Assembly (NCBI GenBank): GCA_023665245.1
Contig: JAMPEH010000004.1
Coordinates: 63,872 to 100,618 of the forward strand
Origin: Muribaculaceae bacterium
Lineage (GTDB): Bacteria; Pseudomonadota; Alphaproteobacteria; Rs-D84
Length of the DNA stretch: 36,747 bases
Direction: 5' to 3'
The translations under genes and the position numbers were made by a program. The notes under the pieces are model-generated. The model did not search any database. It was not told the DNA's origin and saw only the letters and a program-made list of their open reading frames with translations. This document shows, piece after piece, positions 14,880-36,722 of the stretch (the stretch's first letter is position 1; every line of letters starts with the position of its first letter).

Positions 14880-14883
14880 GATG

Positions 14884-14891
14884 CAAAGGTA
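14884..14891 (-). promoter_or_regulatory. AbiE promoter -7 box (TACCTTTG)
   Basis: A perfect TAnnTTTG on the minus strand. With the usual spacing the transcript starts at or within a few bases of the antitoxin ATG at 14879, implying leaderless or near-leaderless translation. Confidence 0.65.
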
Positions 14892-14894
14892 ACC

Positions 14895-14934
14895 AAAAAT
14901 GTTAAGTTTTCGCATGTAAAAACCTAACATTTTT
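14895..14934. promoter_or_regulatory. 40-bp palindromic operator of the AbiE operon
   Basis: A near-perfect 40-bp palindrome centred on CATG (14913-14916), with 17 of 20 base pairs matching; the outer arms are aaaaatgtta and taacattttt. It covers the expected -33 region of the AbiE promoter, so a bound repressor would block RNA polymerase. The best candidate ligand is the AbiEi-like protein encoded next to it. Confidence 0.7.
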
Positions 14935-15063
14935 GATTCCGCAAGAAAAAATTCCATTCAGTACCAGTTTTGAAAACCGTAAACAGAACTATTAACACCT
15001 TTTTTGTACCATTTTCAGTTCATTTGATAATAGTATAAAAACGATGATTATGGAAACAGATAC

Positions 15064-20316: not shown

Positions 20317-20332
20317 AGTGAATGTAATTTTT

Positions 20333-20508
20333 TCAGTCAAACAAACGGTCTATCATATACACAGCACTGATTTTCTTGGTATCAATAATCTTTCCATAAA
20401 CCTGAGTGGTCTCGACGTCAGAGTGTCCCATCAGTTCGGCCGTCGTGTATATGTCGGCTCCCATTGTCTGTGTCAATGTCGCAAAGGTATGCCTGGCGAT
20501 ATGGAATA
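20333..20508 (-). pseudogene. C-terminal relic of another tyrosine integrase
   Basis: Only the last 56 residues or so are recognisable: HIARHTFATLTQTMGADIYT, then ELMGHSDVETTQVYGKIID and the end SAVYMIDRLFD. The H-x-x-R, Gly-His and nucleophile Tyr are present, but everything before the HIAR motif is replaced by unrelated sequence, although the frame stays open to 20728. The fragment ends 16 bases before the intact integrase start on the same strand. It therefore marks an older integrase gene cut through its catalytic domain, probably when the DNA to the right was joined. Confidence 0.8.
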
Positions 20509-20764
20509 TACACGGCAAAGCAAGCAAAAGCGAATAGGTAAAGAGTAAACGTAACCCGTTAGGAATAAGCGATATTTCAGTATTTTGCAAAGTTGAGAAA
20601 ATGCAAACGATAACGGAATATTGAGGTTGTTCAGTTACCAAACCGTTAGCCGGGCGGTTACCAAAACGGGAACAGGTAACGGCAAGCAATGAAAAGAAAT
20701 CCTCACCGTTTTGTTTGCACTCATACACAGTATTTTGCGTATCAAGGGACGCTTATATGGCAAG
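20509..20764. other. Non-coding repeat-bearing region, candidate att end of the second element
   Basis: No gene is credible here. An 11-bp direct repeat cagtattttgc occurs at 20577-20587 and 20728-20738. Another, gttaccaaaac, occurs at 20633-20643 and 20657-20667, exactly 24 bp apart. Several further gtaac/ccgtta variants surround them. Spaced direct repeats just upstream of an integrase gene are typical of integrase arm sites. No terminal repeat could be matched to a partner in this window. Confidence 0.4.
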
Positions 20765-20791: not shown

Positions 20792-22021
20792 ATGAAAGTA
20801 GTGAAATTCAAGGTGTTGCTCTACCTCAAAAAGAGCGGACTGGACAAGTCGGGCAAGGCTCCCATCATGGGACGTATCACCGTGAACCGCACGATGGCGC
20901 AGTTCGGTTGCAAGCTGTCCTGCACACCCGAATTGTGGAATCCCCGTGAAAGCCGTCTGAACGGCAAGAGCAGGGAGGCGGTGGAAACCAATGCCAAAAT
21001 AGAGAAGTTGCTGTTGGCGGTGAACAACGCCTTTGACAATCTTGTGAGCCGTAAAGTGGATTTCGATGCCACCGATGTGAAGAATCATTTTCAAGGCAGC
21101 ATGGAAACACAAATGACCCTCATGCGAATGACGGACGTTGTCTGTGACGACCTAAAAGCCCGTATTGGCATTGACCGTGCGAAAGGGACTTATCCCGGCT
21201 ATCACTATATGCGCCTGACACTTGGCGAGTTCATCGAGCATCAGTACAAGGTCAAGGATTTGGCATTCGGGCAGCTTACAGAACAATTCATCCACGACTA
21301 TCAGACATTCGCCATGGAAAACAAGGGATATGCGATAGATACCGTCCGCCATCATCTTGCTATCTTGAAGAAGATATGCCGTCTGGCTTATAAGGAAGGT
21401 TATGCAGACAGGAGCCACTTCCTGCATTACACCCTGCCTAAGCAGTCAGATAAAACCCCACGGGCATTGAGCCGTGAATCGTTTGAAAAAATCCGTGATG
21501 TGGAAATACCTGCTTACCGTAAATCCCACATATTGGCAAGGGATATGTTTCTCTTCGGGTGTTACACCGGGGTCTGTTATGCAGATGTTGTCTCAATTAC
21601 TCGTGAGAACCTATGTACGGATGAGGACGGGGCTTTGTGGTTGAAGTATCGGAGAAAGAAAAACGAACTTCGTGCCAGTGTAAAACTGTTGCCGGAAGCG
21701 ATTGTTCTGATTGAGAAGTATCACAGTGAGGAAAGGGACACCCTGTTTCCTTTACTGCGCTGGTCAAATCTCAGAAGGCACATGAAGGCGTTAGCTGCAC
21801 TGGCGGGTATCAAGGATGATTTGTGCTATCATCAGGCAAGGCATAGTTTCGCCTCGTTAATCACGCTCGAAGCGGGTGTGCCTATCGAGACCATCAGTCG
21901 GATGCTGGGACACTCCGATATTTCCACCACTCAGGTATATGCCCGTGTCAGTCCGAAAAAACTGTTCGAGGACATGGACAAGTTCATAGAAGCGACCCAA
22001 GATTTCAAACTCACCCTATAA
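20792..22021 (+). CDS. Tyrosine integrase 1 of a tandem pair
   Basis: A 409-aa Bacteroides-type integrase with an N-terminal arm-binding domain (LLYLKKSGLDKSGKAPIMGRI), a SAM-like core (about 110-215) and a catalytic domain. His347 and Arg350 lie in YHQARHSFA, Gly-His 373-374 in MLGHSDI, and the nucleophile is Tyr383 in QVYARV. At the position of the first catalytic Arg there is Cys262 (TGVCYAD), an absence known from IntDOT-like integrases where another Arg is thought to substitute. It is followed after 13 bases by a second integrase on the same strand, and a perfect promoter box precedes it. Confidence 0.92.
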   Translation: MKVVKFKVLLYLKKSGLDKSGKAPIMGRITVNRTMAQFGCKLSCTPELWNPRESRLNGKSREAVETNAKIEKLLLAVNNAFDNLVSRKVDFDATDVKNHFQGSMETQMTLMRMTDVVCDDLKARIGIDRAKGTYPGYHYMRLTLGEFIEHQYKVKDLAFGQLTEQFIHDYQTFAMENKGYAIDTVRHHLAILKKICRLAYKEGYADRSHFLHYTLPKQSDKTPRALSRESFEKIRDVEIPAYRKSHILARDMFLFGCYTGVCYADVVSITRENLCTDEDGALWLKYRRKKNELRASVKLLPEAIVLIEKYHSEERDTLFPLLRWSNLRRHMKALAALAGIKDDLCYHQARHSFASLITLEAGVPIETISRMLGHSDISTTQVYARVSPKKLFEDMDKFIEATQDFKLTL

Positions 22022-22034
22022 ACCCAACAACAAT

Positions 22035-23255
22035 ATGCGAAGCACTTTTTCACTATTGCCCTATATCAACCGCAGCAAAGTCAAGACTGACGGTACGACC
22101 GCCGTACTTTGCCGTATAACCATTGACGGCAAGCAGACAGTCATAAGCACAGGTATCTATTGCCGCCCAGAAGATTGGAACGGCAGGAAGAATGAGATAA
22201 AGATTATCAGGGAGAACAACCGTTTACGGGAATATCTGCGTCTGACGGAAGAAGCCTACACCGAGATACTGAAATCGCAAGGCGTGGTCAGTGCCGAAAT
22301 GCTGAAAAACCACATATCCTTGAACAACATTCATCCGACTACCTTATTGCAAATGGGAGAATGGGAACGTGAGCGGTTGAAGAAACATTCCGAAGAGATT
22401 GATTCCACTTCTTCCTATCGGGCTTCAATGTACTACCAGAAGTACCTGACGGACTTTATAGCGTCAACCGGGAAAAAGGACATTCCTCTTGAAGAAGTGA
22501 CGGAGGATTTCGGCAAGTCCTACAAAGCCCATTTGAAGAAATGCAAGAACTTCGGAGTTTCCCAAACAAACCATTGTCTGCGTTGGCTGAACCGATTATT
22601 GTACCTTGCAGTCGATAAGGAGATTATCCGTGTGAACCCCTGCGAGGATTTGGAATATGAAACGAAACCTGAGGCAAGACACAGGTACATCAGCCGTGAT
22701 GAGTTCAAGAAGATACTTTCCACACCGATGTATGACAAGCGGATGGAACTGGCAAGACGGGCTTTCATCTTCTCGACCCTGACCGGACTGGCGTATGCAG
22801 ACATACAACTGCTGCATCCCCATCATATCGGGACGAATGCGGAGGGCAGACGCTACATCCGCATCAACCGCAAGAAGACAAAAGTGGAGGCGTTCATACC
22901 CTTACATCCCATAGCGGAACAGATATTGTCGCTGTATAACACAACTGATGATGAGAAGCCCGTGTTTCCTCTTCCCAACCGTGATGCCCTATGGTTTGAG
23001 GTTCACGAGTTGGGAATAACCATAGGAAAAGAGGATAACTTGACCTATCATCAAAGTCGGCACAGCTTCGGCACTTTCCTGATTTCAGCGGACATACCCA
23101 TTGAGAGCATCGCCAAGATGATGGGACACTCCAATATCAGGACGACACAGGGATATGCACGGATAACAGACGATAAAATCTCCAAGGATATGGACAAACT
23201 GATGGAGCGGAGAAAGAAAATATCGGCTGGCGAAAAGAAAGAGAATAGTAAATAA
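22035..23255 (+). CDS. Tyrosine integrase 2 of a tandem pair
   Basis: A 406-aa integrase. The N terminus (LLPYINRSKVKTDGTTAVLCRITIDGK) is the common Bacteroides arm-binding domain. Catalytic residues are His339 and Arg342 in YHQSRHSFG, Gly-His 364-365 in MMGHSNI and Tyr374 in QGYARI. The Arg I position holds Ala253 (TGLAYAD), as in many relatives. The tail is Lys/Glu-rich. It shares an operon with integrase 1. Such pairs occur at the ends of several Bacteroides mobilisable or conjugative elements and may work jointly; the sequence does not show which one catalyses strand exchange. Confidence 0.92.
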   Translation: MRSTFSLLPYINRSKVKTDGTTAVLCRITIDGKQTVISTGIYCRPEDWNGRKNEIKIIRENNRLREYLRLTEEAYTEILKSQGVVSAEMLKNHISLNNIHPTTLLQMGEWERERLKKHSEEIDSTSSYRASMYYQKYLTDFIASTGKKDIPLEEVTEDFGKSYKAHLKKCKNFGVSQTNHCLRWLNRLLYLAVDKEIIRVNPCEDLEYETKPEARHRYISRDEFKKILSTPMYDKRMELARRAFIFSTLTGLAYADIQLLHPHHIGTNAEGRRYIRINRKKTKVEAFIPLHPIAEQILSLYNTTDDEKPVFPLPNRDALWFEVHELGITIGKEDNLTYHQSRHSFGTFLISADIPIESIAKMMGHSNIRTTQGYARITDDKISKDMDKLMERRKKISAGEKKENSK

Positions 23256-24663: not shown

Positions 24664-25205
24664 ATTGTCTTTCTTTTAGTTGTTACTGTTTCTTTTGCCG
24701 CAAAGGAATATATAATCCGTTACCTGACAATAGGTTCCCCGAAAGTGGAAGCGTGTTGCGCTGATACGGCAGTCATTGTCCGGGATGCTGACTTCCCTTT
24801 GGCGGCTATCATTCCTTCTCCTGCAAAGAAATACATAATCCGGCATCCGGCAATGGTTTCAATCAGGTCTGGCAGCAAGTGGCACAGGGTGGTAGAGGTT
24901 GGCATTGGCTGGAGGCAGCGGTTATCCTCTTAATTCTAAAAAATAGAAAGGTGGCAAGGGGAAAAATAAGGGCTTAATTCAAATTCGCCTACAATTGAGT
25001 CTTTGCCCTTTCGGGCATATACATCCGGCAAAACGGTGAAGTCCTCACCGTTTTATCAACCGCCATAATGCAAAACCACACAAAATTGCCTAAGAGAATC
25101 CAAGTGCTTGACTGACTGTATTAAAGCGCCTTACTTTGCTCCCGATAATCGGTCAAGGTGTTTACCAAGACCACAGTTAATAACTTAATCAATTTGTTTT
25201 TTACA
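24664..25205. other. Long non-coding stretch with a diverged direct repeat
   Basis: No credible gene is seen in 542 bp. A diverged direct repeat of about 35 bp occurs at 24700-24735 and 24823-24857; both copies start gcaaag(g/a)aata and continue into ataatccg. The first copy overlaps the promoter-like box of the HTH gene, so the second may be a duplicated promoter fragment. The right part before 25206 is A/T-rich leader DNA with an imperfect TCAATTTG box ahead of the next gene. Confidence 0.4.
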
Positions 25206-25673
25206 ATGAAGAGAGAACCAAACATTACAGAGCAGCAGGCTCGTGAAATCGTGGAAAAGATGGGACGCAGGGAATCCTACACTCCCAAGTCGATGAATGA
25301 CATCTACAGACGTATCGGTCTGGAGCCGGATGAGCTGGAACTGCCCGGCAATACCGTTACGGAGGAAACGGAGACCGCTATGGCGGATGAACCGTCAAGT
25401 GAGGCGGTCGAGAAAACGGCAATGCCGCAGAAGCGTGTCAGCAGCAAGCAGCGCAGGTTGTCGTTGGAGGAGTACTGCGCCACCTACCTGAAAGTCCCGA
25501 AACTTGTCAACCGCAAGCCCGTGTTCGTCAGCGAGACGGTGCGTGACGAACTCGACAGGGTTGTCCGCTTCCTCGGAGGAAAGGGCATGAGCGCATCGGG
25601 GCTGATTGAAAACCTCGTCCGCCTGCACCTCGACACCTATCGGAACGACATCGAGCAGTGGCGCAAGCTCTGA
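25206..25673 (+). CDS. DUF3408 mobilisation-region protein
   Basis: A 155-aa protein starting at ATG 25206 (MKREPNITEQQAREIVEKMG); the open frame extends 48 bases further upstream, but that start has no supporting context. The first 90 residues are polar and acidic and probably disordered. Residues 95-155 (RRLSLEEYCATYLKVPKLVNRKPVFVSETVRDELDRVVRFLGGKGMSASGLIENLVRLHLDTYRNDIEQW) are the DUF3408 domain, with the look of a ribbon-helix-helix DNA-binding module. In Bacteroides elements this family sits just before mobilisation genes, as here, and probably contributes to relaxosome assembly or partition. Confidence 0.8.
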   Translation: MKREPNITEQQAREIVEKMGRRESYTPKSMNDIYRRIGLEPDELELPGNTVTEETETAMADEPSSEAVEKTAMPQKRVSSKQRRLSLEEYCATYLKVPKLVNRKPVFVSETVRDELDRVVRFLGGKGMSASGLIENLVRLHLDTYRNDIEQWRKL

Positions 25674-25952: not shown

Positions 25953-26372
25953 ATGAAGAAGAACAAGTACGGGAGAAATCCCAAGTTGAACCCGAAGACA
26001 CACTGTGTGATGGTGCGCTTCGATGATGTAGAATGGAACAGGTTTCTGACGATGTATGAGGAATCGAACGTGTATGCGAAGGCAGTCTTTCTCAAGGCGC
26101 ACTTCTTCGGTCAGAAGTTCAAGGTGCTGAAAGTGGACAAGACGATGCTGGACTACTATACCAAACTGTCGGACTTCCACGCCCAGTTCCGCTGCATAGG
26201 CACGAACTACAATCAGGTTGTCAAGGAGCTACGCATCCACTTCTCGGAGAAGAAGGCGATGGTGTTGCTCTACAAGCTGGAGAAGTGTACCATCGACCTT
26301 GTGAAACTGAGCCGTGAGATTGTAGAGCTTTCAAGGGAGATGGAGAAATGTTACCAATCCAAATCCGACTGA
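25953..26372 (+). CDS. MobC-like relaxosome accessory protein
   Basis: A 139-aa basic protein. The start (KKNKYGRNPKLNPKTHCVMVRFDDVEWNRFLTMYEESNVYAKAVFLKAHFFGQKF) fits the ribbon-helix-helix-like part of MobC/MobA-type mobilisation proteins. YTKLSDFHAQFRCIGTNYNQVVKELR is the conserved helix of the family (usual form h-x-x-IGxNhNQhhk). Such proteins bind oriT DNA and help the relaxase. Normally a relaxase gene follows directly; here the stop is followed after 1 base by the start of a recombinase gene, and no relaxase is present in the window. Intact in length, it is orphaned by context. Confidence 0.82.
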   Translation: MKKNKYGRNPKLNPKTHCVMVRFDDVEWNRFLTMYEESNVYAKAVFLKAHFFGQKFKVLKVDKTMLDYYTKLSDFHAQFRCIGTNYNQVVKELRIHFSEKKAMVLLYKLEKCTIDLVKLSREIVELSREMEKCYQSKSD

Positions 26373-26373
26373 C

Positions 26374-27582
26374 ATGGCATCGGTCAAGGTCAAGTTTCGC
26401 CCATCCACCATAGGCGGCAAGGAGGGCACAATCTACTATCAGGTGATTCATAACCGTGTGGTCAGGCAGATATATACCGACTATAAACTTTTCGCTTCGG
26501 AATGGGACTGCCATTCCGAAGCGGTCATACTGCATCGTGTTCCGAATAAGCAAGAGCGGAATAACCATTTGCTTTCGATAAGCTCACGCATCAGATGGGA
26601 TAAGGACAGGTTAAACAAGATTATACAGACCTTATCCCAATCCGGCACATTTGTGACGGATGATGTAGTCGTGCGCTTTCAGGACAACAGGCAGGAGCCA
26701 TCGTTTAACAACTATATCCGCCAGCAGATTGCCAGATTGAAACGCTTGGGGAAGATACGCACCTCGGAAACCTATACGGCAGCACTCCGAAGTTTCAGCG
26801 GTTTTATGGATGACAAAGAGGTCTTGTTTGACCAGATTAACGCTGACCTGATAGCGGAATATGAGGCTTATCTAAAAGGCAGAGGCAACTCGCCCAATAC
26901 CATCTCGTTCTATATGCGTATCCTGAAAGCGGTTTATAACCGTGCCACTGAAGACGGATTGACCGAACAACGGCATCCGTTCAAGTCTGTCTATACGGGA
27001 GTGGAGAAAACTTTGAAGCGAGCCATATCGCTTGGCGACCTTAAACGCATCAAAGGGCTGGATTTGTCGTTGAAGCCAAACCTTGACTTTGCCCGTGATA
27101 TGTTCCTATTCTGTTTCTACACAAGGGGTATGTCGTTCATAGATATGGCTTATCTGAGAAAGAAGGACTTGCAGAACGGCATCCTTTCTTACCGCAGACG
27201 AAAGACTGGTCAACAATTGTTCATTAAATGGGAAAAGTGCATGCAGGAGATTGTTGACAAATATCCCGTAAATGAAACGGAATACCTTTTACCCATCATT
27301 ACAGAACAGAACAAAGATTATCGAAAGCAATACACCAACGAACTTCACCGAGTGAACCATCTGTTGAAGAAAATAGGGAAGCAACTGAATTTGCCAATAC
27401 CCTTGACAATGTATGTCGGACGGCACTCGTGGGCAAGTATTGCCAAGAGCCGCAATGTGCCTATTTCCGTCATCAGCGAGGGGATGGGGCATGATTCGGA
27501 GAACACCACGCAGATTTATCTTGCATCGCTGGATACCTCAGTGGTGGATAAAGCCAATAAGAAGATACTGGATTTGCTGTGA
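26374..27582 (+). CDS. Tyrosine recombinase of the Bacteroides DNA-invertase type
   Basis: A 402-aa recombinase whose start MASVKVKFRPSTIGGKEGTIYYQVIHNRVVRQI and core FARDMFLFCFYTRGMSFIDMAYLRKKDLQNGI match the family that includes the site-specific invertases (Tsr type) flipping promoters in Bacteroides. Catalytic features are Arg251 in YTRGMSF, Arg350 in MYVGRHSWAS (Tyr347 stands where His is usual, as in relatives), His373 in GMGHDSE and Tyr382 in QIYLASLD. It begins 1 base after the MobC-like stop. Its stop is 31 bases before an 18-bp inverted repeat that encloses a promoter-like box. Inversion of that segment is its most likely local job; element integration is an alternative. Confidence 0.88.
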   Translation: MASVKVKFRPSTIGGKEGTIYYQVIHNRVVRQIYTDYKLFASEWDCHSEAVILHRVPNKQERNNHLLSISSRIRWDKDRLNKIIQTLSQSGTFVTDDVVVRFQDNRQEPSFNNYIRQQIARLKRLGKIRTSETYTAALRSFSGFMDDKEVLFDQINADLIAEYEAYLKGRGNSPNTISFYMRILKAVYNRATEDGLTEQRHPFKSVYTGVEKTLKRAISLGDLKRIKGLDLSLKPNLDFARDMFLFCFYTRGMSFIDMAYLRKKDLQNGILSYRRRKTGQQLFIKWEKCMQEIVDKYPVNETEYLLPIITEQNKDYRKQYTNELHRVNHLLKKIGKQLNLPIPLTMYVGRHSWASIAKSRNVPISVISEGMGHDSENTTQIYLASLDTSVVDKANKKILDLL

Positions 27583-27613
27583 AACCGTGAATGTTTTGCA
27601 AATCTGTCCAACG

Positions 27614-27808
27614 CTTTCTAAGAGACGGATATTACAATGCAAAGTTACGCAAAATAATGATTTCTAGGCTGTAAAATACTGAGAATTTTGCAGGTACTAT
27701 ATTTTTTGTTTTGCGAGGGATATTGGATGTTTTGCGAAATCATCTATGGAAATAAAAAATATATCTCAATATCAACGATATAGAGTAATTTATCCGTCTC
27801 TTAGAAAG
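27614..27808. repeat. Candidate invertible promoter segment bounded by an 18-bp inverted repeat
   Basis: A perfect inverted repeat: ctttctaagagacggata at 27614-27631 and its exact complement at 27791-27808, enclosing 159 bp of A/T-rich DNA without a gene. The arms do not extend further on either side. The loop is far too long for a terminator. The segment lies between the stop of an invertase-type recombinase and the first Ter-cluster gene, and contains the promoter box at 27640-27647. This arrangement is that of the invertible promoters of Bacteroides surface-polysaccharide and SusC/D loci. Confidence 0.75.
27640..27647 (-). promoter_or_regulatory. Promoter -7 box inside the candidate invertible segment (now facing left)
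   Basis: TAACTTTG on the minus strand is a perfect TAnnTTTG, 8 bases inside the left repeat arm. It would transcribe toward the recombinase 3' end. If the segment flips, the box moves to 27775-27782 on the plus strand and would drive the TerB-domain gene with a leader of about 75 bases. No clear -33 TTTG is seen; a T-rich ttttac lies at about the right distance. I see no equally good rightward box in the present orientation. Confidence 0.6.
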
Positions 27809-27863
27809 AGATTCCCACAAAATCATACTACTTCACCTGAAAACGACCTTGGATATAACTGAT

Positions 27864-29258
27864 ATGAGATACGAAGAAAGAGCATGTATAGTTAGAATTG
27901 CCTTAGACCTAATAAAGGCTGATGGCATTATAGATACAAGAGAGATTGACTCCCTTGATGTTCTAAGAAAGAAGTATGCTATCACTAGGGAAGATGAGAT
28001 ATGTGCAGCCGATTACACACTATCTCAAGCCTTAAAACATATAACATCTGCCGATGATGCCACTAAGCATACTTTCATGCAGGACTTTATTCAGATTACC
28101 ATGTCTGATGATTTTTGTGCTCGCGAAGAAGCTTTGCTCTTAATGGCTTTACGCTTGATGCTTACTATAGACTTACCATGTGAAGTTTCTATTTTATCTT
28201 TCGATTCTTCGGTAATTAACTTTGAGAACTCGCAAATCTTGTATTTGGAGAGCGAATTTGACAAGGAAGTAAATGAGCAGATGCAGAAGTTTTATCGAGA
28301 AATCTGTTCAGAGGTTCGTCTTGCCGGATTTGAGTTGGTTTACCTGCCGAAAGTTTCTGAGCATTATAGTAGCATAGCAGAAGCAGACTTATTGAGAATC
28401 GTAAAGTGCCTGTACCCTAAAGTAAGTACAGAAAGGCTACAATCTGTCATAACACAAATGCTCAATTTGTCAACAGCCTCATTCTGTAACAATCAGTTAT
28501 CTCCCAAGTTTTCTATTAAGGAGCTTCGTTCTATCAGCCCCTCTTTCTTAATCAAAATAGGTGATTCAACGGTTAATGACAAAAGAATATCGAATTTTCT
28601 GCTTGTGGAAATAGAAAAAAATCCATTGGCTACAATCAGGACTATACTTGACCTTTTTGCTGAGCATTACCATAATCTGCGTCTGAATTACATTCAAGAG
28701 GCGAAAGGTCGCTTTATCTTCACAGGATATTACCGACAGATTTTTGATATTCTTATGCTTCGTAAAGGGATAAAGAGTACCGTTGTGTTAGACCCGTCTC
28801 GTGAACGTATATATTTCCCTGAAGCAGATGTCAAATTGAATAAAATACACCGTCGCGAAAAAGCTCTCTATGCTTTATTTCTAATGGAATCTGCCAGTGG
28901 TGGCATAAACTTCAGTCCACCGGAATCGCCAAAACAACTTGAACGGTATGAAAAACGCATGAAAGCAATTATGCACAAGTACCAACTCATTTATAGGATG
29001 TTTGGTGGAGATTCGGAAAAAGCTCCTAATATAGAGATACCCGAAATACGCTTACCGATGATAAGTTTACTGAAGAAACAGTTATCCCAGCTAAAGGACA
29101 TTCTTTATCATGTGGACGACTACATGATTCAACGAAATATATATGGCAATTATTCGGTAAACATTTCCGCATCGTTATGCTGTTGCTGTGGAGTTGAAAG
29201 AACCGATATAAAACTTTTATCAGAATCGGAAGATTGGATAAGAATAGCTGCCATATAG
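27864..29258 (+). CDS. TerB-domain protein, first gene of the Ter cluster
   Basis: A 464-aa cytosolic protein, taking ATG 27864 (MRYEERACIVRIALDLIKADGIIDTREIDSLDVLRKKYAIT); a TTG 15 bases upstream is in frame. Residues about 1-110 have the TerB pattern: a helix, the acidic turn ADGIIDTREID, and a second helical hairpin (DDFCAREEALLLMALRLM). TerB domains are linked to metal sensing and membrane-associated Ter complexes. The remaining 350 residues are unrecognised, apart from a helical C-terminal section (LHRREKALYALF-like) and a CCCCGVE cluster near the end. It lies directly downstream of the candidate invertible segment and 160 bp upstream of the terD genes, which have their own promoter box. 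Confidence 0.7.
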   Translation: MRYEERACIVRIALDLIKADGIIDTREIDSLDVLRKKYAITREDEICAADYTLSQALKHITSADDATKHTFMQDFIQITMSDDFCAREEALLLMALRLMLTIDLPCEVSILSFDSSVINFENSQILYLESEFDKEVNEQMQKFYREICSEVRLAGFELVYLPKVSEHYSSIAEADLLRIVKCLYPKVSTERLQSVITQMLNLSTASFCNNQLSPKFSIKELRSISPSFLIKIGDSTVNDKRISNFLLVEIEKNPLATIRTILDLFAEHYHNLRLNYIQEAKGRFIFTGYYRQIFDILMLRKGIKSTVVLDPSRERIYFPEADVKLNKIHRREKALYALFLMESASGGINFSPPESPKQLERYEKRMKAIMHKYQLIYRMFGGDSEKAPNIEIPEIRLPMISLLKKQLSQLKDILYHVDDYMIQRNIYGNYSVNISASLCCCCGVERTDIKLLSESEDWIRIAAI

Positions 29259-29373
29259 CGCAATCTTTCTATCGTAAAGTCAAAGGGTTCAAAGGTTGCA
29301 ACTTTCATTTGCCGAAAAAAGCAGTTCTCGGTTGTAACGTTTCTAAAAGTCAGGAGCTAACTAAAGAACAACA

Positions 29374-29381
29374 TAATTTTG
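29374..29381 (+). promoter_or_regulatory. Promoter -7 box of the terD-led operon (TAATTTTG)
   Basis: A perfect TAnnTTTG 38 bases upstream of the first terD-like ATG, giving a leader of about 31 bases that is very A-rich. It implies that the terD-to-phosphatase block can be expressed independently of the TerB gene. Confidence 0.6.
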
Positions 29382-29418
29382 CATCAGAAATAATTCAAAC
29401 AAATTAAAATTTACAACT

Positions 29419-29979
29419 ATGATTAATCTTGAAAAAGGACAGCGCATCAGCATGGACAAAGGTCTTACGCTGGTAGGTGTAGGTCTCGGATGGGATCCGA
29501 ATGAAGGTACAGGATATGATTTCGACTTGGACGCATCAGCATTTATGCTTGGCGAAAGCGGAAGGATACCGACTGATGAGTATTTTGTTTTCTACAACAA
29601 CCAAAAATCTCCTGACGGTTCGGTTGAGTCAACTGGCGATGACTTGACAGGTGGTAATAGCGATGGGGGTGATGACGAGACTATAAATGTAGACTTGTCA
29701 AAGGTTGATCCTAAAATTCAGGAAATCGTTTTTACTGCAACAATCTACAAAGCAGAGGAACGCAGACAGAATTTTGGTCAAGTGCGAAATTCGTATATAC
29801 GCATCTATGATGCCAAGACAAATGCCGAGATAGCTCGCTATGACCTTGACGAAGACTTCTCTATTGAGACAGCAGTAGAATTCGGACGTCTGTATCGTCG
29901 TGGCGATGAATGGAAATTTGAAGCTATGGGTATAGGCAACAAGGGAGGTTTACAATCTTTAGTTAATAAATACGCTTAA
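29419..29979 (+). CDS. terD: TerD family protein
   Basis: A 186-aa TerD-domain protein of classical length. The N terminus INLEKGQRISMDKGLTLVGVGLGWDPN is the family hallmark. Acidic calcium-binding loops follow: DFDLDASAFML, the GDDLTGGNSDGGDDETINVDL stretch and RYDLDEDFS. It ends EWKFEAMGIGNKGGLQSLVNKYA. TerD proteins are cytosolic, bind calcium and act with TerB/TerC and, in wider Ter systems, with TerY-kinase-phosphatase modules in stress or anti-phage responses. The next gene is a clear tandem duplicate starting 5 bases after the stop. Confidence 0.95.
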   Translation: MINLEKGQRISMDKGLTLVGVGLGWDPNEGTGYDFDLDASAFMLGESGRIPTDEYFVFYNNQKSPDGSVESTGDDLTGGNSDGGDDETINVDLSKVDPKIQEIVFTATIYKAEERRQNFGQVRNSYIRIYDAKTNAEIARYDLDEDFSIETAVEFGRLYRRGDEWKFEAMGIGNKGGLQSLVNKYA

Positions 29980-29984
29980 ATGGT

Positions 29985-30641
29985 ATGGCTGTTAATCTTG
30001 TAAAAGGTGAGAACCGAAAGCTTGACCTCAATAAATTCCATGTGGGTTTAGGTTGGGATGTAAACGAAGATGCATCTCAATTTGATTTCGACTTGGATGT
30101 GGCCGCTTTTATGATTGGAACTAATAAGAAAACTATAGCAGATGACTATTTGGTTTTCTACAACTCTGAAAAACGAGTTAAACCAGAAGATTTATCTACT
30201 ATTGTATCATCATCATTATGGTCAAACAACGATAACTTAAGAAAAGAGTCTCGTCCTGTTGATCCAGACCTCTCGGTTATAGGCTCTATTGATGATGAAG
30301 ATGGTAAAACGTCAGAGGATGGTGATGATGAAATCATGGATATAAATCTGGACAAGGTTCGTCCTGAGGTTCAAGAAATCATTATTACGGTAAGTATCTA
30401 CGATTACCAAAATAGAAGACAAAACTTCGGTCAGGTAGAAAGAGCGTATGTCCGCTTGTATAAGCCCGGTAATGATGCAGATGGCAAAGAAGACTACCGC
30501 TATGATTTAACGGAAGACTTTTCAACTTGTGCATCTGTTGAATTCTGCCGCATTTATCGTAAAAACGATGAATGGAAAGTTCAAGCATTAGGCATTGGAC
30601 ATAGAGGCGGACTTGAAGAGCTGGTTTCTAAATACATGTAG
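29985..30641 (+). CDS. TerD family protein with an internal insertion
   Basis: A 218-aa paralogue of the previous protein. The same landmarks are present (GLGWDVNED, FDFDLDVAAFMI, GDDEIMDINLDKV, RQNFGQV, YDLTEDFS, GIGHRGGLEELVSKYM), showing tandem duplication. The extra length comes mainly from about 30 residues after VFYNSEKR (LSTIVSSSLWSNNDNLRKE and on to SVIGSIDDEDG), a polar loop next to the calcium-binding region. The calcium-binding acidic residues are kept, so it is probably functional with a different partner surface. Confidence 0.92.
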   Translation: MAVNLVKGENRKLDLNKFHVGLGWDVNEDASQFDFDLDVAAFMIGTNKKTIADDYLVFYNSEKRVKPEDLSTIVSSSLWSNNDNLRKESRPVDPDLSVIGSIDDEDGKTSEDGDDEIMDINLDKVRPEVQEIIITVSIYDYQNRRQNFGQVERAYVRLYKPGNDADGKEDYRYDLTEDFSTCASVEFCRIYRKNDEWKVQALGIGHRGGLEELVSKYM

Positions 30642-30643
30642 TT

Positions 30644-31282
30644 ATGGCTATCATTCTGGAAAAAGGTGGTGACACTCATCGCATCAATCTCGAAAAGAGA
30701 ACAGGAAAGACATTGACCGGTGAAATCGTCATCAATTTGGATTGGGATAAAGGTGGTTTCTTGAAAAACCTATTTGGAAATGCCATTGACTTGGATCTCG
30801 GTTGTTTCTACGAATTGCGAAACGGACAAAAGATGCTGATTGACGGTTTGCAATTCTCGCATGGTCGAGGTGGTGACCGTCATCATGTGACTAGACAGGG
30901 ATGTTACGATAAAGCACCCTACATTTGGCATCAAGGCGATGACAGAGGTGGAGGAAGTTCATCCGGTGAGACTGTTTTTGTCAATCCAATAGGCGTTAAT
31001 GACATAAAACGCATCATCGTTTACACTTTCATCTACGAAGGTGTTGCCAAATGGTCAGAAACGAATGCTGTCGTCAAAGTAAAGGTACCCGGTAGCGAGG
31101 ATGTTATAGTCGAAATGGGGCAACAAGTAAGTCCAAAGAAATTCTGCGCCATTGCTCAACTTGATTTTGGAGGCGACAATTCGATAACTGTCAAGAAACT
31201 TGTGACATTCCACGAAGGGCATAGTGATTGCGACCGGACATATAATTGGGGTTTCAATTATAGTCCGGGGAGTAAAGACTAA
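30644..31282 (+). CDS. TerD-superfamily protein, TerA-like
   Basis: A 212-aa protein starting 2 bases after the previous stop. It opens with AIILEKGGDTHRINLEKRTGKTLTGEIVINLDWDKG and contains AIDLDLGCFYEL in place of the usual DFDLDxSAF loop. It has an insert rich in His and Gly (HGRGGDRHHVTRQG, WHQGDDRGGGSSSG) and a late IIVYTFIYEG.AKW strand. The divergence from canonical TerD and the FCAIAQLDF.GDNSITVKKLVTFHEGH ending resemble TerA-type members. The His-rich loop might bind metal. Part of the same tightly packed operon. Confidence 0.8.
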   Translation: MAIILEKGGDTHRINLEKRTGKTLTGEIVINLDWDKGGFLKNLFGNAIDLDLGCFYELRNGQKMLIDGLQFSHGRGGDRHHVTRQGCYDKAPYIWHQGDDRGGGSSSGETVFVNPIGVNDIKRIIVYTFIYEGVAKWSETNAVVKVKVPGSEDVIVEMGQQVSPKKFCAIAQLDFGGDNSITVKKLVTFHEGHSDCDRTYNWGFNYSPGSKD

Positions 31283-31303
31283 CAACAATAAAAACAATAT
31301 ATT

Positions 31304-31975
31304 ATGGCTATTCGATTAGAAAAAGGACAACGCATCAATCTCGAAAAAGAGACCGGCGCAAAACTGACAAACTTCTGCGTAGGGTGCAATTGGGGTGCAA
31401 TAGTCAAAAAGACTTTCTTTGGACTCAGCAGCTCGGTAGTTGACGTAGACTTGGATTTAAGTTGCTTGATGTTTGATGCAGAAGGCAAACCAATCGACCA
31501 CATCTATTCGCCTCTCTATCGTTTTGGCGATAGAAACGTAGGGCTTCCAAATGGAAAGGTTGATTCAGTTGACCATGCTCTCCATCATACAGGTGATGAT
31601 ACACAAGGTGACCAAAATGGAGATGACGGATTGGACAACGAAATTATAACCGTTGATTTGAACAAAGTAAGTTCCCAAACAAACTCAATAGTGTTTTTCC
31701 TTAATATCTATAACAACAATGAGTTTAGTGGGGATTTTTCAGAGATACCCTATGCATCAATCAGAATGTATGAAGGTACTGCCACAAAGGTACATTCCGT
31801 TTTTGCACAATATGACGTTGCTACTAAGGATAATTGTCGTGGTATGCGAGCGCTTGTTATGGGCAAGCTCTATCGTCGTAATGGCGAGTGGAAATTCGCG
31901 GCCATTGGCGATGCTTTTGAGGATAGAAACATCGTTCAAACCATAGGAAGAGTAATGAAAGACTATTCAAAATAA
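31304..31975 (+). CDS. TerD-superfamily protein, TerZ-like
   Basis: A 223-aa protein with the N terminus AIRLEKGQRINLEKETGAKLTNFCVGCNWG, the loop VDVDLDLSCLMFD, an acidic stretch TGDDTQGDQNGDDGLDNEIITVDLNKV and the ending LYRRNGEWKFAAIGDAFEDRNIVQTI. These fit the TerZ-type branch of the superfamily. It lies 21 bases after the TerA-like gene and 12 bases before the first TerY. Together the four TerD-superfamily genes give a set of related calcium-binding subunits that may form mixed assemblies; that is inference. Confidence 0.85.
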   Translation: MAIRLEKGQRINLEKETGAKLTNFCVGCNWGAIVKKTFFGLSSSVVDVDLDLSCLMFDAEGKPIDHIYSPLYRFGDRNVGLPNGKVDSVDHALHHTGDDTQGDQNGDDGLDNEIITVDLNKVSSQTNSIVFFLNIYNNNEFSGDFSEIPYASIRMYEGTATKVHSVFAQYDVATKDNCRGMRALVMGKLYRRNGEWKFAAIGDAFEDRNIVQTIGRVMKDYSK

Positions 31976-31987
31976 AAAAATAGAAAT

Positions 31988-32626
31988 ATGAGACGACTTC
32001 CCGTTTATCTGCTCCTCGACACTAGCGGTTCTATGTACGGTGAACCTATCGAGGCGGTGAAGAATGGTGTGCAGACACTTATCTCCACTTTGCGCAGCGA
32101 CCCATATGCACTCGAAACTGCATATATCAGCATTATAACATTCAATTCTTCTGCTCAACAGATTACTCCACTTACCGAGTTGGCATCTTTTCAACAACCC
32201 AATATTGATGCAAGTGGCTGTACGGCTCTTGGTGGAGCATTGGAACTTCTTTCACAAAAGATTGACAGCGAAATAACCAAAACCACAGCAGAAGTAAAAG
32301 GCGATTGGCGGCCATTGATATTCATTATGACCGATGGTGTGCCTACAGATGATATTACCAAAGGACTCTCTGAGTTCAAAAAACGCAAGTGCGGTATGGT
32401 TGTGGCGTGTGCTGCCGGACAAGGAGCAAGCACAGACACACTCAAACAAATTACAGAGAATGTGGTGCAGCTTGACACGGCTGACAGCGCAACTATCAAG
32501 GCTTTCTTCAAGTGGGTTTCCGCAAGTATCAGTACAAGCAGCAAGTCTGTTGAGGAAACAGCAGCCGAAGCAACCACAATGAGCGAATTGCCACCTCCAC
32601 CTCCAGAGGTAAATATTGTAGTATAA
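31988..32626 (+). CDS. TerY-like vWA domain protein
   Basis: A 212-aa single-domain von Willebrand factor A protein. The metal-ion-dependent adhesion site is intact: D11-x-S13-x-S15 in LLLDTSGSMYGEPIEAVK, Thr in GCTALGGAL and Asp in IFIMTDGVPTDD. It lacks a signal peptide, so it acts in the cytosol, as TerY proteins do. It ends in the proline-rich tail ELPPPPPEVNIVV, also found in the next TerY. TerY, a PP2C phosphatase and a protein kinase form the published TerY-P triad linked to Ter systems; this operon supplies the first two. Confidence 0.92.
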   Translation: MRRLPVYLLLDTSGSMYGEPIEAVKNGVQTLISTLRSDPYALETAYISIITFNSSAQQITPLTELASFQQPNIDASGCTALGGALELLSQKIDSEITKTTAEVKGDWRPLIFIMTDGVPTDDITKGLSEFKKRKCGMVVACAAGQGASTDTLKQITENVVQLDTADSATIKAFFKWVSASISTSSKSVEETAAEATTMSELPPPPPEVNIVV

Positions 32627-32634
32627 GCATAACT

Positions 32635-32674
32635 ATGCCCGAAAGTCGCCTATACAAAAGTGTCTTTCGGGCAT
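32635..32674. terminator. Hairpin between the first two terY genes
   Basis: An 11-bp perfect stem, atgcccgaaag (32635-32645) and ctttcgggcat (32664-32674), with an 18-base loop, located 9 bases after the first terY stop and 16 bases before the second terY ATG. No strong T-run follows, so it may be a partial terminator or an RNA-processing or stability element that lowers expression of downstream genes. Confidence 0.5.
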
Positions 32675-32689
32675 TAATTCAAAAAACTA

Positions 32690-33328
32690 ATGAGTAGAAG
32701 ATTACCAGTATATATTTTAATAGATACAAGCGGCTCAATGAAGGGCGAGCCAATAGAAAGTGTCAAGGTGGGGCTATCTGATATGATAGCATCACTACGC
32801 CTTGACCCGTATGCGTTGGAAACTGCGTGTATCAGTATTATTACATTTAATAGTAATGTAAATCAAATACTTCCGCTAACAGACTTGGAAAACTTACAGT
32901 TACCCGATATACAAGTACCTATTTCTGGGGCAACCTTTTTGGGAGCAGCCCTAGAGCTTATGTGCCAGCGGTATGATGCTGAAGTGAACATGGGTTCTCG
33001 TGAGCAGAAAGGAGATTGGATGCCACTCTTGTTTGTACTTACAGACGGTAAGCCTTCGGACATACAAGCATACAATGAAGCTATTCAAAGAGTAAAGAAG
33101 CATCAATTTACCAATATCGTTGCGTGTGCAGCCGGTCCAAAAGCAAAAACTGAGCCTCTGAAAAAACTCACAGACAATGTGTTTACTCTTGATACTATGG
33201 ATAGCAGCACATTCAAAAAGTTTTTCCAGTGGGTAACCATCAACGTACAACAGGGCGGTCGTACAATGGGCGTTACCGACCAAGTTGAGCTTCCTGCTCC
33301 TCCGGCAGAAGTAAACCTTGTAATCTAA
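32690..33328 (+). CDS. TerY-like vWA domain protein
   Basis: A 212-aa paralogue of the preceding TerY. MIDAS residues are D12-x-S14-x-S16 in ILIDTSGSMKGEPIESVK, GATFLGAALEL for the Thr loop and LFVLTDGKPSD for the Asp loop. It also has SIITFNSNVNQILPLTDL and the tail ELPAPPAEVNLVI. It is the same length as its neighbour, so a duplication is likely. It begins after the hairpin at 32635-32674 and is followed by the AIM24-like gene 5 bases on. Confidence 0.92.
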   Translation: MSRRLPVYILIDTSGSMKGEPIESVKVGLSDMIASLRLDPYALETACISIITFNSNVNQILPLTDLENLQLPDIQVPISGATFLGAALELMCQRYDAEVNMGSREQKGDWMPLLFVLTDGKPSDIQAYNEAIQRVKKHQFTNIVACAAGPKAKTEPLKKLTDNVFTLDTMDSSTFKKFFQWVTINVQQGGRTMGVTDQVELPAPPAEVNLVI

Positions 33329-33333
33329 GTAGT

Positions 33334-33999
33334 ATGAACGTTAAGTTGATAGGCAACTTCATCCAGCATCTGGAAGTAGAACTTCTTTCCGATGAGGATT
33401 TCTATGCTCAAAAAGGAGCGCTGATATATCTTGAAAAGGGCATAGAAAAAGAAGCTCAAATGAATGGTGGAGGAACAGGGGCATTAGGAGCCCTTGGCAA
33501 TTTAATCGGATCTAAGTTGTCCGGTGAGTCTATTTTTCTAATGCACTATTCTAACAGGGCACAATCTCCTAAGAAAATTGTTTTTGGCGGTTCATTCGGG
33601 CTTCACCCCATTAAAATCCAGAACGAAACCCTGATTTGCAATAAGGGTTCGTATGTTGCTTCTAACAACTCCGTACAAATTTCTACGCAAATATCTATTG
33701 CCGGTATATTAGGCGGAATGGGAGTCTTCCTACAAAAGATTTCCGGTAGTTCTACTATATTTCTTGATTGCAAAGGTCAACCGATAACTAAAGATTTAGG
33801 ATATGGTGAAACCATAGAAGTGGATGAAAATCATATTATCGCTCTGCAAGGAATTTCCGAAGGTCAACTGTCTTCCGCTTGGTCATTGAAAAATGTGTTT
33901 GGAGGAGAAGGGCTTAGTATGCTGAGAATCACCGGTCCCGGTCGTGTCCACTTAAGTCCGGGTAGTTTAATACCCGAATACCGGCTTGTAAACCAATAA
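33334..33999 (+). CDS. AIM24-like (TIGR00266-type) protein
   Basis: A 221-aa protein, beta-rich with many Gly turns: GALIYLEKGIEKEAQ, then a Gly/Ala patch, SKLSGESIFLMHYSN, VFGGSFGLHPIKI, GSYVASNNSVQISTQ, then LGYGETIEVDENHIIAL and ITGPGRVHLSPGS. This is the pattern of the AIM24/DUF124 family, trimeric beta-prism-like proteins that often accompany TerD and vWA genes in bacteria. No catalytic residues are known for the family. It is tightly embedded between two terY genes, so it is probably a structural or membrane-recruiting member of the Ter complex; that role is inference. Confidence 0.8.
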   Translation: MNVKLIGNFIQHLEVELLSDEDFYAQKGALIYLEKGIEKEAQMNGGGTGALGALGNLIGSKLSGESIFLMHYSNRAQSPKKIVFGGSFGLHPIKIQNETLICNKGSYVASNNSVQISTQISIAGILGGMGVFLQKISGSSTIFLDCKGQPITKDLGYGETIEVDENHIIALQGISEGQLSSAWSLKNVFGGEGLSMLRITGPGRVHLSPGSLIPEYRLVNQ

Positions 34000-34027
34000 C
34001 GACAACAATAACAATAAAGATGATATT

Positions 34028-35074
34028 ATGAGACGATTACCCGTATATTTCCTCGTTGACGTATCAGAGTCAATGGTAGGCGAACCCATACAGCAGGTTC
34101 AAGATGGCATGAGAATGATAGTGCAGGAATTGCGCACTGACCCTTATGCCCTCGAAACAGCGTTTATCTCTGTAATTGCATTTGCAGGGAAAGCCAAGAC
34201 ACTGCAACCTTTGACAGAATTGTATAAGTTCTATCCACCTATCTTCCCTATAGGCGGCGGAACATCACTTGGTGCAGCATTGGATTACCTTATGGATGAT
34301 ATGGATAAATCGCTGGTAAAGACCACTACCGAGCAAAAGGGAGATTGGAAACCTATCATATTCCTCTTTTCCGACGGAACTCCTACTGATGACCCGACCT
34401 CTGCCTTTGCCCGATGGAACAACAAGTATCGCCGCAAAGCTAATATCGTTGCTATCTCTATCGGTGATAATGTCAACACGCAGATGCTTGGACAGATTTC
34501 CGACAACGTTCTTCGTCTTAACAGCACAGACGAGATGTCGTTCAAGGCATTTTTCAAGTGGGTAACTGCATCCATTAAGGCAACAAGTGTGTCTGTTACG
34601 GATGTTGGCGACGATGATGTAAAACTGGCACCGACCAATGGTATTAACCTGGAGAAGGTTGACACTTCCAAGCCTTGCATTGTAGATGAGAACTTTGCGG
34701 TGTTGCTTGGAAAATGCTCTAATACCAAGAAGCAATATCTCATCAAATATGCCAAACATCTTTCGGCTATAGAAGGACTGGAGAATTTGGATATGAAAGC
34801 TATTGACTTCAAACTTGTCGGCGCATATCCTATTGACGAAGAAACATACAACGAGCTATGTGATGGTAAGTCAAACCGTAACATCAACACTATGTCGCTG
34901 CGAGGTGTACCGACATGCCCCTGCTGCGGCAATCAACTTGGTGTAGTTGTCTGCGAATGCGGAAACATAATGTGCTCGGATGGACATACTACCGCTTGTC
35001 CTTGGTGTGGTATGGAAGGCTCATTAGGAGAGATTGCCGAAGGTGGTATGGATATAACAAGAGGAAGAGGATAA
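34028..35074 (+). CDS. TerY-like vWA protein with C-terminal zinc ribbon
   Basis: A 348-aa protein. Residues 1-200 are a vWA domain with MIDAS D11-x-S13-x-S15 (FLVDVSESMVGEPIQQ), GGTSLGAALDYL and IIFLFSDGTPTDD. Residues about 215-285 form a linker domain (IVDENFAVLLGKCSNTKKQYLIKYAK). The end carries a zinc-binding module: CPCCGNQ, CECG, C followed by DGH, and CPWCG. This architecture is the TerY with C-terminal domain described in Ter systems. It precedes the phosphatase by 4 bases, so the two are probably co-translated partners. It is longer than the two plain TerYs and likely the one coupled to phospho-signalling. Confidence 0.9.
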   Translation: MRRLPVYFLVDVSESMVGEPIQQVQDGMRMIVQELRTDPYALETAFISVIAFAGKAKTLQPLTELYKFYPPIFPIGGGTSLGAALDYLMDDMDKSLVKTTTEQKGDWKPIIFLFSDGTPTDDPTSAFARWNNKYRRKANIVAISIGDNVNTQMLGQISDNVLRLNSTDEMSFKAFFKWVTASIKATSVSVTDVGDDDVKLAPTNGINLEKVDTSKPCIVDENFAVLLGKCSNTKKQYLIKYAKHLSAIEGLENLDMKAIDFKLVGAYPIDEETYNELCDGKSNRNINTMSLRGVPTCPCCGNQLGVVVCECGNIMCSDGHTTACPWCGMEGSLGEIAEGGMDITRGRG

Positions 35075-35078
35075 AATT

Positions 35079-36722
35079 ATGACTTTCGAGAAAATCATCC
35101 AAACAATCATAGGCGACACGAATGATGAAAGGGCTGAAGGCTTTTTACGTTTCTTGTCATCAAAACTATGGGGACTATATAACGATTATCTTATGGACAA
35201 AATTAAAGTGGCTGAGAGCGAGATTGTCTGGAATCTCAATATGCCCAATGCCAAAGAAAACCAGATATACAATCAAACGGTTGAGATGCCAAAAGTATCT
35301 TCAGCCCAATTGCCTGAGGTGGAAATACTTCTTAACGATGTGGTAGGACTGGAACAGGATATACATGGACTGCAATTGATGGTAGCTCCAGACAAGCATT
35401 CATTCGCTATTACAGGGACACCTACTCTTGAGCATTTCCGCAAAGATGGTGCTACAGCACTATCGACATTTGAACTTACTCTTAAATATCATTTCTCGGG
35501 AATGGAAATGCCTGCGGAACGTCCCGTATTGGAACGCAAGGTGCAGTTTGTTATCAACCAAGACCCGCGAAAACTATGGCGAGACATTCCTGTTGATTGG
35601 GAAAATATGACTGAACCCAAGTACAAGAAAGATGACATTCAGATAGACTATGTAAAAGTTGAAGCGTTGTCAGATGGTACACCGCAGAAGGATATTGTTG
35701 CCGCCAGTAAGCGAGGACGTAGCCACGCACAGGAGGGCAAACCACGTGACGACCACTTCAAGATGAGCCACATGGATAATGGATGGTACATCATGGCTGT
35801 TGCCGATGGAGCAGGATCAGCAAAATACTCTCGTGAGGGTTCACGGATAGCTTGCGAAGAGGTGACAAACTATTGTATGGCGCAACTAGCCAATAGCAAA
35901 GATTTTGAATCGGCAGTCAAGCAATATAATGAGCACAAAACAGAAAGCGAAAGTGACGCACGAAAGGCTGTAGGCGACTATATCTATAAGATTGTCGGAA
36001 CCGCTGCATTCAAGGCTCATAAAAGCATAAATGCAGAAGCCGCAATAAAGAAGTTGCCGGCAAAACAATATGCTACTACTCTATTGTTGGCAATCTGTAA
36101 GAAATTTGAATTCGGATGGTTCATTGCGACATTCTGGGTTGGAGATGGTGCTATATGCCTGTACAACAAGCAGGCACATACTGCAGAAGTCCTTGGCGTA
36201 CCCGATGAAGGTGAATATGCAGGACAAACTCGATTCCTTACTATGCCGGAGATATTCAAAGATGCGACATCATTATATCAGCGTCTGCGCTTCCGAATTG
36301 TTGATGACTTCACCGCACTTTTTCTAATGTCAGATGGTGTAAGTGACCCCAAGTTTGAAACGGATGCCAATCTCAACAACCCGGATAAATGGGATGCACT
36401 TTGGACTGACCTAAAAGAAAACGGCGTAGAGCTAACCGATGACAACGAAGAAACGAAAAATCAGCTGCTTGCATGGCTTGACTTCTGGTCTCCGGGCAAT
36501 CATGATGACCGTACCATTGCTATATTGTATGAAGGTGAAGATGTTTCACAGAACATCTCTTCAGAAACGGCAGATGAAGATAATACCTCCATTCCCGATG
36601 TACCCGAAACTACATCGAATGAGGAAGAAATTGCAGAAACACCTGTTGAACCTTCCTCTACAGAAGACATTGAAGAGCAAGATCAATCGGCCGCAGAAGA
36701 TGTAGAACCTCAAAAGGAATAA
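35079..36722 (+). CDS. PP2C-type serine/threonine phosphatase of the TerY-P module
   Basis: A 547-aa protein. Residues 1-195 form an unrecognised N-terminal domain. The PP2C domain runs from about 205 to 485: SHAQEGKPRDDHF (first Asp motif), MAVADGAGSAKYSREGS, FWVGDGAICLY, FLMSDGVSDPKFE and NHDDRTIAILY supply the metal-binding aspartates. The last 60 residues are very acidic and Ser/Thr/Pro-rich (GEDVSQNISSETADEDN and on), probably disordered and possibly itself phosphorylated. In the TerY-P triad this phosphatase works against a kinase; the next gene, cut by the window edge, is the likely place for it. Confidence 0.9.
   Translation: MTFEKIIQTIIGDTNDERAEGFLRFLSSKLWGLYNDYLMDKIKVAESEIVWNLNMPNAKENQIYNQTVEMPKVSSAQLPEVEILLNDVVGLEQDIHGLQLMVAPDKHSFAITGTPTLEHFRKDGATALSTFELTLKYHFSGMEMPAERPVLERKVQFVINQDPRKLWRDIPVDWENMTEPKYKKDDIQIDYVKVEALSDGTPQKDIVAASKRGRSHAQEGKPRDDHFKMSHMDNGWYIMAVADGAGSAKYSREGSRIACEEVTNYCMAQLANSKDFESAVKQYNEHKTESESDARKAVGDYIYKIVGTAAFKAHKSINAEAAIKKLPAKQYATTLLLAICKKFEFGWFIATFWVGDGAICLYNKQAHTAEVLGVPDEGEYAGQTRFLTMPEIFKDATSLYQRLRFRIVDDFTALFLMSDGVSDPKFETDANLNNPDKWDALWTDLKENGVELTDDNEETKNQLLAWLDFWSPGNHDDRTIAILYEGEDVSQNISSETADEDNTSIPDVPETTSNEEEIAETPVEPSSTEDIEEQDQSAAEDVEPQKE

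Follow-up and report, generated by a model that had tools for sequence, protein, structure and literature searches.

A recombinase-linked putative promoter segment precedes a Ter operon

We analyzed a 36,747-nt stretch of DNA from a Muribaculaceae bacterium (contig JAMPEH010000004.1, positions 63,872 to 100,618; "the window" below means this whole stretch), in which a tyrosine recombinase gene is followed by a short segment between inverted repeats and then by a tellurite-resistance-type (Ter) operon. Our analysis indicates that this recombinase very probably inverts a promoter segment inside a mobile element of a gut bacterium, thereby switching the Ter operon, and that Ter is one of several cargos carried behind such switches. 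The switch comprises the following features:

26374..27582, plus strand: tyrosine recombinase of 402 residues, presumed invertase (Pfam PF13102, PF17293, PF00589)
27611..27625: putative left core recombination site, ACGCTT-TCT-AAGAGA (perfect left repeat arm, 27614-27631)
27632..27790: putative invertible segment, 159 bp, 28.3% GC
27640..27647, minus strand: TAACTTTG -7 box, pointing leftward (OFF)
27797..27811: putative right core recombination site, TCTCTT-AGA-AAGAGA (perfect right repeat arm, 27791-27808)

The original prediction, made from the letters alone, had described a perfect 18-bp inverted repeat enclosing 159 bp with a minus-strand TAnnTTTG box. On the sequence its coordinates are exact: the arms are complementary at 18/18 positions with 159 nt between them, and the box stands where it was placed. 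The predicted spacing also holds, with 31 nt from the recombinase stop codon to the repeat and 55 nt from the repeat to the ATG of a TerB-like gene at 27864. Across the window, no other exact inverted repeat reaches 14 bp with a spacing of 50-500 bp, and we rejected a chance origin because the longest exact repeat never exceeded 15 bp in 200 Markov resamplings of 17.7 kb. In the OFF state the -7 box faces the 3′ end of the recombinase gene, 58 nt away; after a flip it would lie at 27775-27782 on the plus strand (by arithmetic). The exact repeat pair had no match in viral contigs, and the sole match to the window's promoter stretch was the contig of one relative, L081.

The gene beside the segment had been assigned to the recombinase type that includes Bacteroides promoter invertases, and Pfam identifies it as a tyrosine recombinase with an intact catalytic set (R251, K277, Y347, R350, H351, H373 and Y382). 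Six of these residues are invariant in 89/89 aligned sequences, and at position 347, 82 sequences have Y and seven have H; in tyrosine recombinases more widely, the equivalent position is usually H. An intact tyrosine recombinase thus directly adjoins the segment.

Related recombinases are followed by paired core sites with matched spacers

We collected 90 relatives of the recombinase, namely the best 80 of 409 in genome contigs and 10 in viral contigs, and found a repeat downstream of the recombinase in 74 of the 90. Seven of those without a repeat have less than 200 nt of downstream DNA (L008, L009, L015, L019, L064, L066, L090). We then scanned 85 sequences (84 loci plus the window, leaving out L008, L009, L015, L064, L066 and L090, which have almost no downstream DNA) for pairs of TCTCTTnnnAAGAGA cores, ignoring the spacer, allowing ≤3 mismatches in each core and requiring the two to lie 120-230 nt apart. 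Such pairs follow the recombinase in 74/85 sequences. The spacer is equal between the two arms in 74/74 cases and in 34/34 distinct pairs, comprising 21 spacer types, with the limit that the rows share ancestry and that neither these counts nor the OFF/ON counts below are independent. Control stretches from the same loci contained a core pair in 3/231 cases and equal spacers in none. Strand exchange at the site would be expected to give spacers that match within an element yet differ from one element to the next. Separately, L023 and L059 share about 93% nucleotide identity with L031 and L044 across the recombinase region and have clearly different repeat arms.

The segment occurs in both orientations among relatives

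In line with the original prediction, aligned homologous loci carry the segment in either orientation. L068 and L069 encode identical recombinases and hold the segment reversed (reverse-complement identity 1.00) between flanks that are also identical (1.00/1.00, over 40 nt on the left and 60 nt on the right). L004 and L007 likewise differ by a reversed segment (identity 0.98, flanks 0.94/1.00), and L040 is reversed with respect to seven loci at 0.91-0.94 identity, with left flanks of 0.90-1.00 and right flanks of 0.93-0.97 except for 0.52 in L029, whose cargo is different. The window segment itself matches L003 directly at 0.78 identity, and L007 at 0.78 only when reversed. That such segments invert is therefore well supported by the relatives, and the window segment would be expected to invert likewise.

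We called promoter polarity by the -7 box in 74 loci (counting the window and dropping L005, where the segment is a run of N), and found 57 OFF, 11 ON and six neither. The window had been proposed to be OFF in this orientation and ON after a flip; its polarity fits the family and inversion stands through the relatives, while transcription of the Ter genes is a prediction.

In the mechanism that we propose, the tyrosine recombinase (26374-27582) would recombine the core sites at 27611-27625 and 27797-27811 and so invert the 159-bp segment, which would hold one Bacteroidetes-type promoter. In the state seen in the window, this promoter would fire left toward the 3′ end of the recombinase gene, leaving the Ter operon OFF. 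After a flip, if the transcript begins a few nucleotides past the -7 box, transcription would run rightward from about 75 nt ahead of the ATG of the TerB-like gene and turn the genes at 27864-36722 ON. Switching would then yield ON and OFF cells, hedging a costly defence or stress system. We infer that the adjacent recombinase does the acting, that the promoter drives Ter, that OFF is the common state and that bet-hedging is what is selected.

Related switches carry exchangeable cargo, mostly of defence type

We typed the cargo of the 74 repeat-bearing relatives by representatives, comparing 40 proteins with PADLOC, some by Pfam, and spreading the assignments by single-linkage clustering of blastp matches. 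Defence or defence-candidate systems make up 57 of the 74 and other or untyped loci the remaining 17, a count without a baseline from random tyrosine recombinases. The defence set comprises IIG pairs (14), split IIG (nine), ISP (seven), SNF2 only (five), SNF2 with type III (five), type III (four), Zorya (three), SNF2 with IIG (three) and type II methyltransferase (two), and one each of AAA/IetA-like, ZorB-like, 5mC methyltransferase, Dnd/Pbe and BREX; "SNF2 only", L001 and L003 are of candidate grade. Glycan and radical-SAM loci are among the 17 others.

In close relatives of the switch, the place of Ter is taken by Zorya or by type IIG or type III restriction systems. In a quick recombinase tree, the window falls in a nine-member clade (SH-aLRT 100) that spans six kinds of cargo, and at least 30 cargo changes are needed across the 58 typed rows. 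Within the window's clade, the change of cargo frequently lies at the outer edge of the right site. Overall, this recombinase family appears to form a switch that is borne by a mobile element and whose cargo is exchangeable and mostly of defence type. None of the 90 relatives, many of whose loci are short downstream, has a second Ter operon behind the switch.

The Ter operon also occurs without the switch

Rightward of the segment, all genes from 27864 to 36722 are co-directional:

27864..29258, plus strand: first cargo gene, 464 residues, with a TerB-like N-terminal domain and a winged-helix-like C-terminal part
29419-29979, 29985-30641 and 31304-31975, plus strand: TerD-domain genes (PF02342)
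30644-31282, plus strand: untyped gene amid the TerD genes
31988-32626 and 32690-33328, plus strand: two VWA-domain genes (PF00092)
33334..33999, plus strand: AIM24-family gene (PF01987)
34028..35074, plus strand: TerY, VWA plus TerY_C metal-binding domain (PF15616, PF00092)
35079..36722, plus strand: PP2C phosphatase gene (PF13672)

TerD-domain proteins, a TerY_C protein and a PP2C phosphatase thus stand in one operon, and as in other Ter/TerY-P operons TerD repeats, VWA proteins, TerY_C and PP2C occur together. The window ends 25 nt past the PP2C gene, and the operon may extend further.

Related Ter operons elsewhere differ from the window in lacking the switch: the 800 nt before the TerB-like gene of L128-L132 (780 nt available in L129) contain no inverted repeat, and the DNA examined around these operons has no match to the switch recombinase at E 1e-4. 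L128 has the same operon, with a first gene 70% identical to that of the window, eight of the other nine genes 79-96% identical and the second TerD gene at 39%, and its homology to the window starts at the start of the TerB-like gene (27866). With no repeat at these relatives and homology that begins at 27866, the operon evidently exists without the switch. The operons of L129, L130 and L132 are more distant; in L130 the first Ter gene is split into two matches, and in L132 the TerB-like gene lies elsewhere in the cluster. A tyrosine integrase that is 28-29% identical to the integrases of the window's element lies ~1.9 kb upstream in L130, pointing to Ter operons that also ride on other mobile DNA.

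TerB-like homologues are sparse: 28 of 399 genomes family-wide have one (best 70% identity), as do seven of 393 order-wide (all below 30%), plasmids gave one remote match (34%), and none was found in phages or, for close relatives, in viral contigs. PADLOC returned nothing for the seven Ter-operon genes tested of ten, so Ter is read as a defence system from the company it keeps and not from a model.

The switch sits on a mobile element

Upstream of the recombinase, the window contains these genes of the carrying element:

20792..23255, plus strand: two tandem tyrosine integrases
25158..25673, plus strand: DUF3408 gene, element backbone (PF11888)
25953..26372, plus strand: MobC_2 gene (PF19514, E 1.9e-49)

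The integrases and MobC_2 are of the kind that a mobilizable element (IME) would carry alongside a relaxase, and together with DUF3408 they form a backbone common to the window and its close relatives. L001, L002, L003, L005, L067, L081 and L090 likewise have a MobC_2 relative ≤200 nt ahead of the recombinase, and relatives of both tandem integrases occur in L003 (the first partial), L004, L007, L081 and L090. In L004, L007, L164 and L165, a relaxase and one further gene precede the recombinase, so the switch occurs on two backbone types; the relaxases of L004, L164 and L165 have no homologue in the window. The recombinase start codon lies 1 nt past the preceding stop codon in both types (the window, where that stop belongs to MobC_2, L004 and L164).

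L164 (MT835906.1), an additional relative, is a faecal record labelled Bacteriophage sp., which has an L004-like relaxase backbone and the switch. It has matched ACC spacers, an OFF promoter and two large untyped downstream genes (614 and 788 residues). The L165 stretch at 5329-6255 lies on a Parabacteroides distasonis plasmid that carries DUF3408, mobC and a relaxase, along with a recombinase relative that is shortened.

In its left part, the window seems to hold a fragment of a conjugative element, next to the one that carries the switch. This part contains a TraG P-loop conjugation ATPase (7199-9904) and an AbiEi/AbiEii-type abortive infection pair (13177-14957, in the neighbouring element), and a short integrase-like piece (20333-20728) lies beside an integrase (19183-20340) near the border between the two elements.

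Contig ends, opposing observations and alternative explanations

Contig ends near the switch are suggestive of the fork expected in mixed populations. At a threshold picked after looking at the data, downstream contig ends fall ≤240 nt from the recombinase stop codon in 6/35 cases versus 0.72 expected (P 1e-4). The contigs of L008, L015 and L066 stop within the left arm or at its edge, and that of L009 ends a few nucleotides short of the arm position in near relatives; the others of the six are L064, which ends in different, repeat-rich sequence, and L019, which ends inside the segment region. In L005, a run of N covers the segment exactly.

Several observations weigh against an inverting promoter switch. 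Upstream contig ends, a rough control, lie ≤240 nt from the recombinase match in 2/24 cases, so the contig-end signal is only suggestive and part of the excess may have another cause, and L005 has two other runs of N elsewhere. We saw no conserved -33 box upstream of the -7 box. Among the 83 relatives with ≥200 nt of downstream DNA, nine have no repeat (L020, whose recombinase match is incomplete, L037, L048, L055, L058, L065, L074, L088 and L089), and some family members may therefore have lost or changed the switch. Finally, the outer half of the window's left core is degenerate (ACGCTT versus TCTCTT), as it is in eight close relatives (L001-L007 and L081), though L007 with this same half-site is ON. 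This half-site, together with an OFF promoter in 57 of the 68 loci where polarity could be called, would fit a static relic, in which a once-invertible segment is locked OFF in the window and Ter is silent or under another promoter. We consider such a relic quite unlikely: the recombinase is intact, L007 has the opposite orientation to L004 despite the degenerate half-site, and the arms have stayed 18/18 identical while spacers differ between elements, which argues that they are being kept in step.

The border between switch and cargo raises the question of integron-like capture, in which the recombinase would join operons at the right site and inversion would be a by-product. The window's homology to L001, L002, L003, L004 and L006, which have other cargo, runs as far as 27811-27812, where the right core has its outer edge, and further pairs with different cargo behave similarly: L029/L043 (97% identity) and L061/L070 (95%) diverge 2 and 1 nt past this edge, and L001/L081 and L001/L002 2-3 nt past it. 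The alignment of L081 to the window ends at 27740, inside the segment, and those of L005 (run of N) and L007 (inverted segment) end at 27630, where the border is not readable. Across cargo-different pairs at ≥80% identity, however, only 41 of 134 match ends lie ≤5 nt from the edge, with 49 inside the segment and 44 beyond it, and at any identity the figure is 163/1680; the outer edge of the right site thus seems to be a recurring cargo border and not a rule. Homologous recombination in the shared left part would, moreover, preserve an old border. Neither the window nor any of nine close loci has a further core site with ≤1 mismatch, and L007, where the end of the cargo is in view, has none with ≤2, though this search is not final: the left core itself has two mismatches, two-mismatch matches are scattered in other loci and the end of the window's cargo is out of view. 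On balance, capture is an unlikely account. The OFF-facing promoter could also be the functional one, making antisense RNA into the recombinase and mob genes, in which case the switch would chiefly control inversion rate or transfer. The box that faces the recombinase and the 1-nt junction in both backbone types are consistent with this, but these are purely positional arguments, and past the segment most loci have a large sense-direction operon; we judge this explanation very unlikely. Within the promoter-switch mechanism, two points are speculative and drawn from position: antisense transcription into the recombinase in the OFF state, and a link between switching and transfer by way of the mob operon.

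Discussion

Bacteroides is the classic setting for invertible promoters paired with local tyrosine recombinases, which are best known there for capsule, surface proteins and S-layers; work by Weinacht in 2004 reportedly described their flipping by a local Tsr-type tyrosine recombinase. The window resembles these systems in its adjacent tyrosine recombinase, in the inverted repeats that enclose a promoter motif and in the downstream locus that would be switched, with both orientations of the segment seen in relatives only. It differs in cargo, which is a Ter operon here and intracellular defence systems in relatives. Phase-variable restriction-modification in B. fragilis and epigenetic invertons, reportedly described by Ben-Assa and by Huang in 2020 and said to shuffle specificity genes, likewise involve DNA inversion acting on restriction systems in Bacteroides, whereas here an ON/OFF promoter would stand ahead of whole systems of several kinds.

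Passages of more recent work extend the range of such loci. Palindromic repeats that follow recombinases are described in a 2025 paper for loci other than capsule as well (PMC12118408), restriction systems are among the inverted loci named in a passage of a 2025 review (PMC12632263), and a passage of a 2023 paper passes on a proposal that methyltransferase expression may be varied by invertible promoters (PMC10333322). A further parallel concerns integrative and conjugative elements (ICEs), where antibiotic resistance genes lie under invertible promoters that the authors derive from glycan loci (PMC8748976). There, too, a mobile element carries the switch and a highly variable region immediately follows the promoter, but the cargo named is of resistance and glycan type, along with type VI secretion system (T6SS) or pathogenicity operons and tetQ elements, unlike Ter here; the words "tellur" and "defense" have no occurrence in that paper's main text. 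In the titles, abstract openings and passages of the literature searched, a set to which preprints do not belong, we found no Ter operon under an invertible promoter, though a prior mention is possible, and no switch family loaded mainly with defence systems. Ter as a switch cargo therefore appears to be new. Already known is the arrangement of an invertible promoter with variable cargo on a mobile element.

As a more tentative extension, which we think possible but hold with less than even confidence, this may be a mobile switch family of the Bacteroidales specialised to make anti-phage systems stochastic. Zorya, BREX, Dnd and type III, ISP and IIG restriction systems would have been placed behind it time and again, the right recombination site serving as a recurrent junction, with Ter as one costly cargo that is mostly OFF; as the mob operon ends with the recombinase gene, transfer may itself reset the switch in a new host. 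If true, a mobile, defence-carrying switch would make population immunity heterogeneous beyond receptors, and could help to explain defence genes that are present but silent. The natural role of Ter operons is unsettled, and the presence of Ter in a slot otherwise filled mostly by anti-phage systems offers a testable hint of its function. On the extended reading, Ter would count as an intracellular defence system that is costly and kept OFF in most cells.
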